Source of the DNA: Streptosporangium becharense
GTDB taxonomy: Bacteria > Actinomycetota > Actinomycetes > Streptosporangiales > Streptosporangiaceae
Assembly: GCF_014204985.1 (NCBI RefSeq)
Contig: NZ_JACHMP010000001.1
Span: 3,534,001-3,598,000 of the forward strand
Reading direction: 5' to 3'
DNA: 64,000 bases
The position numbers and the translations under genes were made by a program. The notes below the pieces were generated by a model. The model had not been told where the DNA came from, did not search any database, and saw nothing but the letters and a program-made list of their open reading frames with translations. Positions 36,765 through 39,570 of the stretch are shown here, in pieces. Every line of letters starts with the position of its first letter. The first letter of the stretch is position 1.

Positions 36765-38378
36765 ATGACCATGGTCACTCGGCCACGTGTGAGCCAGACG
36801 AGTCCTGTCGAGCTTGTCTCCTGGGTTCTGTCCGGACGCATCCGTTTCCCGTCCTTCCAGCGTTCCTATCGCTGGGAGCACGAAGATGTCACAAAACTCT
36901 TCGACAGCGTCCTGCGGGGTCACCCCATCGGGACCCTGATCATCTGGCGACACCCCGCTGACACGGACACTCTCCGGCTGGGCCCTTTGACGATCGCCGC
37001 GGAAGCAAGACCGGACGCGTTCTGGGTGGTCGACGGGCAACAGCGCGTCATCAGCCTGGTCGGGGCCCTCACTGCTCCGCCGGAGACCGCCGACCCACGA
37101 TTCCGGATCTTCTTCGATCTCCGGGAGAACGAGTTCGTCTCCGCCGATCGACACCGGCAGGTGCCTGAGCACTGGTTCCCGCTGCCGGCCGCGATGAGCA
37201 CTGCCGAAACGCTCGCCTGGCAGCGTAAGCGCCCAAGGCTCACCGACGCCGAACTGACGAGATGCTTCACCGTGATGACAGCGATACGGGACTATCCCAT
37301 CGCCATGTACGTCATCGAGGGTGACGACAATATGGGGCACTACACCCAAATCTTCCAGAGGATCAACAGTTCCGGCGTCTCACTGCGTCGTGACGAGATC
37401 GACCACGCCCGCCGGGCCGTATCCGACCAGGCGGACGGTTCGGATCTGGCCATGCTGGGTTCAGTTGCGAGGAGGCTGGGTTTCGGCACGATTCCCACGC
37501 GTGTGCTCGCCCAGTCGATTCTCGCCACGCGAGAGGATCGGTCCAGGCGAGCATCCCTCGCGGCACTGAGCGATGACGAGCGGCGCGAGGCCGTCCAGAC
37601 CGCCGCGCAGGCGCTCGGAGACGCCGTCGACTTCTTGCGGGAGGAAGCAGCCATTCCACATGTCCGGTTGCTGCCTTACCCGGTCTTCCTACCCGTCCTG
37701 GTGCGCTTCACCGCCCTGTTCGGGCCTCCCGAAGGGCGTGTGGCGGAGCTTCTCCGCCGCTGGATCTGGCGGGGATCAGCACTTGGCATGGCCCCGCGCG
37801 GTTCCACCGCGACCTTGCGAAAGTACAGCGAAACCGTGAAGGGCGACCCTGCGGCCAGTGTGGATCGGCTACTCGGCATGCTTCCGCCGTATACGACGTG
37901 GAGACCTGATCTCAACGCCACCCGGCTTGACGAGGCACAGACGAAAGTCAACCTTCTCGGCATGCTGTCCCGCCACCCTCGAATCCTCGTGCAGCCTCGG
38001 GGAGGCGACGACCTGGTCGGCACAGTGGCGGATCCGCAGGGGCTCATGGAACAAGCCGGAGGCCCGCTGTTCCCGATCACAGCAAACCGTGGAGCACTCT
38101 ATGAGACGATGGCCAACCGCCTGATCCATACTCGCGACGTGTCCGTCGGCGACATCCGCCGGGCACTGTCCCACGAGGAACTCGACCCCGAGGTTCTGCA
38201 AAGCCACTTCATCGATGACAGAGGGCTGGACTTGTGGCGGCGGGGCGAAAAAGGGGAGTTCGTCACTCATCGAGCCGCGCTCGTCCGGACGGCCATCGCC
38301 GAGCATGTCCAGGAGAACGCTCTGTTCGGCTTCCCCGACGGCCCGGACCCGACCACCCTGAGAATTCCGGAAACATAG
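36765..38378 (+). CDS. DUF262 domain protein (GmrS-like half without HNH)
   Basis: The protein has 537 residues. The N-terminal third is a DUF262 domain of the ParB/Srx-like fold: FPSFQRSYRWE at 29-38, VVDGQQR at 88-94, and FQRINSSG at 197-204. In GmrSD type IV restriction enzymes this domain binds NTP and partners a DUF1524 HNH nuclease; the C-terminal half here is helical and has no HNH motif. A hipA-type gene starts one base after its stop, so the pair is translationally coupled. AGGAGG precedes the ATG. Codon use is less GC-extreme than in purD or murA, suggesting acquisition. Probable defence or toxin-antitoxin role. Confidence 0.8.
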   Translation: MTMVTRPRVSQTSPVELVSWVLSGRIRFPSFQRSYRWEHEDVTKLFDSVLRGHPIGTLIIWRHPADTDTLRLGPLTIAAEARPDAFWVVDGQQRVISLVGALTAPPETADPRFRIFFDLRENEFVSADRHRQVPEHWFPLPAAMSTAETLAWQRKRPRLTDAELTRCFTVMTAIRDYPIAMYVIEGDDNMGHYTQIFQRINSSGVSLRRDEIDHARRAVSDQADGSDLAMLGSVARRLGFGTIPTRVLAQSILATREDRSRRASLAALSDDERREAVQTAAQALGDAVDFLREEAAIPHVRLLPYPVFLPVLVRFTALFGPPEGRVAELLRRWIWRGSALGMAPRGSTATLRKYSETVKGDPAASVDRLLGMLPPYTTWRPDLNATRLDEAQTKVNLLGMLSRHPRILVQPRGGDDLVGTVADPQGLMEQAGGPLFPITANRGALYETMANRLIHTRDVSVGDIRRALSHEELDPEVLQSHFIDDRGLDLWRRGEKGEFVTHRAALVRTAIAEHVQENALFGFPDGPDPTTLRIPET

Positions 38379-38379
38379 G

Positions 38380-39570
38380 ATGACTGAAGGCATCACAACC
38401 GCCCAGGTACTGCTTGGCGACCGACTTGTCGGCATGCTGGAATGGCGGGCGGGAAGGGCCCAGTTCCGGTACCTGGACCGTGCCGCGGATCGACCGGTTC
38501 TGGGCCTGCAGTACGAATACAACCCCAGGAAGATCGAGAAGGCCGTCGGGGGCCGGTTGCCCTCCTGGTTCGGGAACCTGCTCCCGGAGCCCGAGTCCGG
38601 TCTGCGTCGTCTCGTCACGGCCCAGCTCGGGCTCAAGGCGGTCAGTGATTTCACTCTCCTGACCCACCTGGGTCAAGATCTACCGGGAGCGGTCCGGGTG
38701 ATCGGTGAGGAGACCCACGCGGAGAGTGGGCCCGAGGGCGACGGGCCGCACCCGGCCACGCGGAAGATGAGCTTCTCCCTGGCCGGGATGCAGGTAAAGC
38801 TCTCCATGGCCCGCACCCCCGAAGGGTTCCGGTATGTCGGCGTGGGAGGCGACTGGATCGTGAAGTTTCCCAGTTCGCGTCACGATCTCCTGCCGGAGAA
38901 CGAGCATTCGATGATGACCTGGTCGGCTATGGCCGGGATCGAAGTCCCGGAGCACACGCTGACCCGGGTCGGCGCCCTCGAGAACATCCCTTCGGAGCTT
39001 GAGGCCCACGGCCGGCAGGCTTTCGCCATCCGGCGTTTCGACCGGCTCGGTGGCCTCCGCATCCACCAGGAGGACTTCGCGCAGGTCTTCGGGGTGCTGC
39101 CGCATGAGAAGGATCGGGGCCGGGCCGAGGATGTGGGCCGCGTGATCCAGCAGGAGTGTCCCGATGATCTCGAAGAATACGTCCGACGAATCACCGCCTG
39201 CGTGGTGATGGGAAACACCGACGAGCATCTCAAGAACTGGTCGCTGCAGTATCCGGGTGGGCGTCGGCGGCGGCTCTCTCCTGCCTATGACCTCGTCTGT
39301 GTGACTTCCTACCCGGCTTTCCAGAAAGACGTGTTGACCCTCCCCCTCAACGGGCAGCCCGATACCCGCTACATCACGCTCGATCACTTCCGCGGCTTCG
39401 CCGAGACGGTCGGAGCCGATCCCGCCGCGGTGACGGCGACCGTACGGCACACCGTCCACGCGCTGGCCGACTCATGGCCGGAGGTCAAGAGACATTGCCC
39501 GGTTCCCGCCTTCGTCGCCGCCCACTTGGATGAGCGACTACAGAATCTTCCTCTGGTGAAGGAGGTGTGA
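38380..39570 (+). CDS. HipA-family serine/threonine kinase
   Basis: The protein has 396 residues. Residues 5-110 form the HipA N-terminal subdomain (GLQYEYNPRK...WFGNLLPEPES...LLTHLGQDLPGAVRV). The kinase core has the Ser loop SLAGMQVKLSM (S133), K162 in WIVKFPS, catalytic GNTDEHLKNW at 278-287 and the metal-binding D304 in SPAYDLV, so it looks active. E. coli HipA phosphorylates glutamyl-tRNA synthetase and causes persistence. The usual HipB antitoxin is absent; a DUF262 gene sits in its place directly upstream (TAGGATG junction). The island ends here. Confidence 0.88.
   Translation: MTEGITTAQVLLGDRLVGMLEWRAGRAQFRYLDRAADRPVLGLQYEYNPRKIEKAVGGRLPSWFGNLLPEPESGLRRLVTAQLGLKAVSDFTLLTHLGQDLPGAVRVIGEETHAESGPEGDGPHPATRKMSFSLAGMQVKLSMARTPEGFRYVGVGGDWIVKFPSSRHDLLPENEHSMMTWSAMAGIEVPEHTLTRVGALENIPSELEAHGRQAFAIRRFDRLGGLRIHQEDFAQVFGVLPHEKDRGRAEDVGRVIQQECPDDLEEYVRRITACVVMGNTDEHLKNWSLQYPGGRRRRLSPAYDLVCVTSYPAFQKDVLTLPLNGQPDTRYITLDHFRGFAETVGADPAAVTATVRHTVHALADSWPEVKRHCPVPAFVAAHLDERLQNLPLVKEV

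Follow-up and report, generated by a model that had tools for sequence, protein, structure and literature searches.

Known relatives of the two genes

The HipA kinase is the archetype of persistence toxins, and its purpose is still debated. Within the 64,000-nucleotide stretch of the Streptosporangium becharense genome analyzed here (contig NZ_JACHMP010000001.1, positions 3,534,001 to 3,598,000; hereafter the window), a gene for such a kinase directly follows the gene for a DUF262 protein, and it is this DUF262-HipA pair that we describe. Paired kinases resemble those of hipBA modules in being full length, with an N-terminal subdomain and all catalytic residues, and in having their partner gene directly upstream and overlapping, but the hipBA partner is the helix-turn-helix (HTH) protein HipB, in whose stead the pair has a DUF262 protein. 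A survey of 1,239 HipA kinases distinguished ten organizations, none of them with DUF262 (Gerdes et al. 2021, PMC8262856). In the HipAD system (also DS-6 or PDC-M66), a HipA-like kinase is required for phage defense, and deletion of its partner is toxic (PMC13092281, PMC12548924). Like the pair, HipAD is a two-gene module in which a HipA-like kinase is teamed with a protein other than HipB, but that protein is of the DUF3037/DUF1829 type and unrelated in domain to DUF262. Neither of these domains is present in the pair, whose DUF262 protein matches only GmrSD_N in Pfam, and the M66 models gave no match to the paired HipAs.

On the DUF262 side, SspE and BrxU (Type IV proteins of the GmrSD family) share with the pair a core carrying FQR, DGQQR and F-x-R-x-N motifs, but the DUF262 protein of the pair is without a detectable DUF1524/HNH domain, and the effector is apparently the separate kinase. 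Menshen, Dazbog and PD-T4-2 each have a DUF262 protein without DUF1524 as a defense component (PMC10952713). As in the pair, that of Menshen/PDC-M55 adjoins separate effector genes; these, however, are AAA ATPase or OLD-type genes, and no HipA is among them. The window DUF262 protein aligns with PDC-M55C over its full length but scores 176 bits, against 815–885 for true members, and an assignment of the pair to the catalogued PDC-M55 was rejected, the model representing a DUF262 clade that is sister to that of the pair and has ATPases as partners. PtuX, another DUF262 protein without DUF1524, has been proposed to be a nuclease, and the putative defense operon PtuXYZ likewise includes a toxin-like gene, but where the pair has HipA, PtuX is accompanied by a PtuA-like ATPase and a BECR RNase (PMC11980606). 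A DUF262-HipA pair is undescribed in PADLOC 2.0.0 and in the open-access papers searched (subscription papers and most preprints lay outside the search); in the open-access literature, DUF262 and HipA both appear in one paper only, and not as a pair.

Conservation of the pair and replacement of HipB

Both genes of the window lie on the forward strand, separated by a single base. Their features, in window positions, are:

36765..38378, + strand: DUF262 (GmrSD_N) gene, 537 amino acids (aa), without detectable DUF1524/HNH; stop codon TAG, start backed by alignment A1
36855..36863, + strand: F31-Q32-R33 of the DUF262 protein; F31 aligned with Y63 of the SspE-like chain 20yv
37032..37046, + strand: D90-G-Q-Q-R94 of the DUF262 protein, the nucleoside triphosphate (NTP)-binding motif; R94 aligned with R133 of EcSspE
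37431..38330, + strand: C-terminal half of the DUF262 protein (residues 223-522), mostly helical, with no nuclease family detected and a likeness to the SspE C-terminal domain and to part of BrxU
38380..39570, + strand: gene for a HipA-type Ser/Thr kinase, 396 aa, identified by Pfam domains and a structural match to E. coli HipA
38404..38700, + strand: N-terminal subdomain of HipA (HipS-like, Couple_hipA; Pfam)
38776..38805, + strand: S133-LAGMQVKL-S142 of HipA, a glycine-rich loop that includes K140 and corresponds to the regulatory Ser loop of HipA/HipT
39214..39237, + strand: catalytic motif N279-T-D281-E-H283-L-K285-N286 of HipA
39280..39291, + strand: Mg-binding motif P301-A-Y303-D304 of HipA

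An initial annotation, made from the sequence of the window, had described a DUF262 protein with intact motifs but no HNH domain, lying one base from a full-length HipA with an apparently intact active site, and both halves of this description hold. The 537-aa protein matches GmrSD_N (E 1.5e-24) and nothing else in Pfam, with no DUF1524 match at E<=1, and its FQRSYRW, VDGQQR and FQRINSSG motifs are all intact. The kinase matches both HipA_C (E 4.6e-45) and Couple_hipA (E 1.6e-15) and is therefore full length. It has G136, K140, K162, D281, H283, K285, N286 and D304, residues that are invariant in paired, HipB-type and other HipAs, and it shares 22 positions (catalytic, Mg-binding and phosphate-loop) with the latter two groups.

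The adjacency, which might have been unique to one genome, recurs widely. When GTDB representative contigs were scanned with the DUF262 alignment alone, 80 loci were returned, and HipA lies immediately downstream in 76 of them. These 80 loci come from six phyla (Actinomycetota, Pseudomonadota, Myxococcota, Cyanobacteriota, Acidobacteriota and Chloroflexota); of the four without HipA, two stop at a contig edge (L060, L098) and two truly lack the gene (L066, L069). Among 299 genomes of the family, the DUF262 relatives that group with that of the window (at least about 30% identity over most of the length) are all followed by HipA, decayed copies excepted. The median spacing in 98 pairs is -4 bp, and the genes overlap in 65 of them. 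Searches keyed on HipA covered Actinomycetota, in samples drawn at phylum, class and family level. The matches fall into two groups, at or above about 240 bits and at or below about 150 bits. All intact HipAs of the upper group with upstream sequence are preceded by DUF262, with the sole exception of one in Acrocarpospora (genome G107, locus L205), as compared to none of the 44 in the lower group; the same single exception applies when high-scoring is taken as 270 bits or more.

Pairwise distances between the DUF262 proteins correlate with those between the HipAs (r 0.86; reached in 0 of 2000 permutations), as expected for co-inheritance. Of 76 distinct pairs, 75 retain the DGxQR motif and 75–76 the kinase motifs. 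Chance adjacency of two independent genes, in favor of which there is nothing beyond the single genome of first observation, is refuted by these distances, by a gene order and spacing that recur at about 100 loci from at least six phyla, and by the source genome itself, where the only two HipA_C genes are each paired with DUF262. Two plasmids of Azospirillum, including a conjugative one, also carry the pair, and there the RefSeq names are the generic 'DUF262 domain-containing protein' and 'type II toxin-antitoxin system HipA family toxin'. A phage-borne pair was considered and rejected: neither phage records nor IMG/VR gave a HipA match, and the DUF262 search of IMG/VR returned one weak match of 71 residues only.

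What stands upstream of related kinases without DUF262 indicates which gene was replaced. Pseudomonadota HipAs scoring 190–375 bits and lacking DUF262 have instead a small upstream gene, overlapping or a few bases away, and HTH_3 was matched by 21 of the 22 small open reading frames (ORFs) upstream of these sister HipAs; annotations of plasmid examples agree. Beside the paired loci, HTH_3 was found in 1 of 128 small ORFs, whereas the same method, applied as a positive control to 38 other HipA loci, detected it in 33 upstream ORFs. A hidden HipB was accordingly rejected for the window, where no HipB-like antitoxin occurs in the operon, and for nearly all relatives. A third component was also sought, but no flanking gene family is common to more than five loci, and those found represent local synteny or low-complexity reading frames.

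Paired HipAs were defined by a tree, since a bit-score cut-off is valid in Actinomycetota only, HipB-type sisters in Pseudomonadota reaching 375 bits. In a FastTree phylogeny of 160 HipAs, the 92 that are paired with DUF262, which are all the paired kinases in the tree, form one clade (support 1.0), and this is nested within a larger clade (0.993) that otherwise comprises 23 HipAs of the HTH-partner type. Such nesting shows that DUF262, a GmrSD/SspE-family protein, took the place of HipB in the same upstream position, apparently once. The sequence comparisons indicate that the pair was afterwards inherited together and spread horizontally. The adjacency in 76 of 80 loci, the tree and the HTH_3 counts thus uphold the earlier reading of a two-gene system without HipB. 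That reading had also spoken of two halves being swapped; the usual HipA partner has indeed been replaced, but the event is better described as replacement of HipB by a GmrSD-like protein without a nuclease signature.

Proposed mechanism and alternative explanations

A read-through fusion of the two window genes was modelled with AlphaFold2 (predicted local distance difference test score, pLDDT, 90.7). The model matches E. coli HipA with a Z of 37 over 356 residues. Its residues 7-522 match BrxU (1-582) with a Z of 16, 450 residues aligned and a root-mean-square deviation (rmsd) of 24, and they also superpose on SspE (Z 8) with a large rmsd; these high values are attributed to domain shifts. 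Residues 223-522 of the DUF262 protein match the C-terminal domain of SspE (Z 8.0, 264 aligned, rmsd 6.3), and because of this resemblance the protein may be a GmrSD-like chain with a decayed HNH site, possibly a degenerate remnant. Other rows of the structural comparison (lipid kinases, CotH, Fam20) were set aside as reflecting the general kinase fold. In EcSspE, R133 is the residue for GTP hydrolysis and Y63 senses phosphorothioate (PMC13251355). R94 of the DGQQR motif aligns with this hydrolysis residue, R133 in EcSspE, and with R100, the residue mutated in entry 7drr. Chain 20yv is probably EcSspE, judging from its matching residue numbers, and F31, an aromatic residue at the Y63 position, is only a hint of modified-DNA recognition.

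Sequence comparison establishes that the genes are paired, that the partner was swapped and that both active sites are conserved; from there we infer a course of binding, restraint, trigger, release and target as follows. The DUF262 protein would bind HipA and keep the kinase inactive until it meets a trigger, probably modified or foreign DNA by analogy with SspE and BrxU. Hydrolysis of NTP at DGQQR would then alter the shape of DUF262, as in the 'recognize-hydrolyze-activate' switch of SspE, and this change would free HipA in place of firing a nuclease. The freed kinase would phosphorylate a protein of the host; the most likely target is an aminoacyl-tRNA synthetase, the type of substrate used by HipA and HipT. 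The resulting growth arrest would limit phage spread. To the general proposal, a module of regulator and effector that descends from a hipBA toxin-antitoxin operon and in which DUF262 restrains HipA until a trigger frees it and growth stops, we give an even chance of being correct. More tentatively, we propose that a sensor of the Type IV restriction kind was turned from DNA cleavage to the release of a protein kinase, DUF262 detecting modified phage DNA, hydrolyzing NTP and unleashing HipA to shut down translation. To our knowledge, this would be the first case in which the sensing of modified DNA is tied to a kinase as effector.

Judging from a clade that has exchanged its ordinary antitoxin for a protein resembling a DNA sensor, some HipA kinases at least may be effectors of infection responses, and a protein kinase would join the effectors that are apparently controlled by DUF262 (HNH, OLD-type nuclease and RNase). 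The pair is common across six phyla, yet RefSeq names it only generically.

In four Streptomyces loci, a gene for a RAMA domain (E about 1e-18) lies directly upstream of the pair. RAMA is a restriction/methylase-associated reader of modified DNA. These are small genes with an apparent ribbon-helix-helix-like start followed by RAMA:

L040:5541-5945: RAMA gene upstream of the pair
L042:5233-5643: RAMA gene upstream of the pair
L043:5517-5927: RAMA gene upstream of the pair
L046:5535-5933: RAMA gene upstream of the pair

In this Streptomyces subgroup they may form a third component that reads modified DNA, and they hint that the subgroup deals with such DNA.

The initial annotation had cast DUF262 as controller, with a modified nucleotide or phage signal as its putative input, and HipA as effector. 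For this division of roles there is indirect support in the DUF262 gene occupying the slot of HipB and in HipA decaying more often. About nine loci (L043, L066, L069, L071, L084, L097, L177, L182 and L184) retain an intact DUF262 while their HipA is broken or missing, and the reverse was seen once, in Acrocarpospora, where DUF262 has been deleted from the same locus in two genomes, leaving HipA intact in G107 (C58, L205) and frameshifted in G027 (C62, L202).

Several observations weigh against the proposed regulator-effector module. HipA may not strictly require DUF262 as its antitoxin, given the intact copy in G107, but this orphan may also be silent, since the upstream part of its operon is gone. 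Six of the nine cases of HipA decay come from the DUF262-seeded search, and some are possibly assembly errors. The wider neighborhoods consist mostly of housekeeping genes with a few scattered defense families and so provide no argument for defense islands, and RAMA is limited to one subgroup of pairs. Fusion models with pLDDT near 90 gave predicted template modelling (pTM) scores of 0.75 for the window pair and 0.59 for that of L083, and interface confidence was not repeatable.

Two other arrangements were weighed. DUF262 could be simply the antitoxin of HipA, perhaps an autorepressor, in a toxin-antitoxin module for persistence or maintenance that senses no infection. Such a role would fit its placement exactly where HipB would be, the Azospirillum plasmids (including the conjugative one), the housekeeping neighborhoods without visible defense-island enrichment, and the more frequent loss of HipA. 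We nevertheless consider it rather unlikely, as 537 aa with an NTP-hydrolysis motif conserved in 75 of 76 pairs far exceed the needs of an antitoxin, relatives of the protein act in phage defense (Menshen, Dazbog, SspE and BrxU; PMC10952713), and the orphan HipA of Acrocarpospora G107 is tolerated. Control might also run in reverse, with HipA phosphorylating and regulating DUF262 as the effector, a nuclease or nickase of ParB/Srx fold as proposed for PtuX (PMC11980606), which likewise lacks DUF1524. The DUF262 core is intact, and the gene persists without HipA in L066 and L069, but no HNH nuclease is detectable, the gene sits in the slot of a kinase inhibitor, and a harmful DUF262 effector predicts the opposite of the decay seen, in which HipA is affected more often; we regard this direction of control as improbable.

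Genomic setting of the pair

As the initial annotation had noted, the pair lies between purD and murA and has less GC-extreme codons than its surroundings. The gaps to these genes are 146 and 228 bp, with no HTH gene in either, and a scan for promoters and terminators found nothing. Third-position GC is 0.76 for DUF262 and 0.80 for HipA, compared to 0.93 for purD and 0.90 for murA, which suggests horizontal acquisition. In all 15 other genomes of the genus (L218-L232), purD and murA are also near each other, but the slot holds an unrelated gene of about 345 aa in 13, about 330 bp of intergenic DNA in one and an apparent remnant in another, and the 299-genome family search found no HipA of the paired clade in these 15. 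By this comparison, the pair was inserted at purD-murA within the present lineage. The uncharacterized gene of about 345 aa, the usual occupant of the slot, is absent from the window; it was considered as a decayed form of the pair and rejected as unrelated.

In a deltaproteobacterial metagenome-assembled genome, two HipA genes form an apparent tandem: the first has an unusually long ORF of 761 aa, and the second (L096:10074-11321) lies about 1.2 kb further downstream. In the S. becharense genome, the second pair (C1:2894465-2897402, L201) is a divergent one of group B, with a DUF262 protein about 30% identical to that of the window and a likewise low third-position GC of 0.75. The same genome also carries a PDC-M55-type operon (C1:851336-854995, L004), made up of an ATPase fragment, a 342-aa gene and a DUF262 gene whose product scores 885 bits to PDC-M55C.
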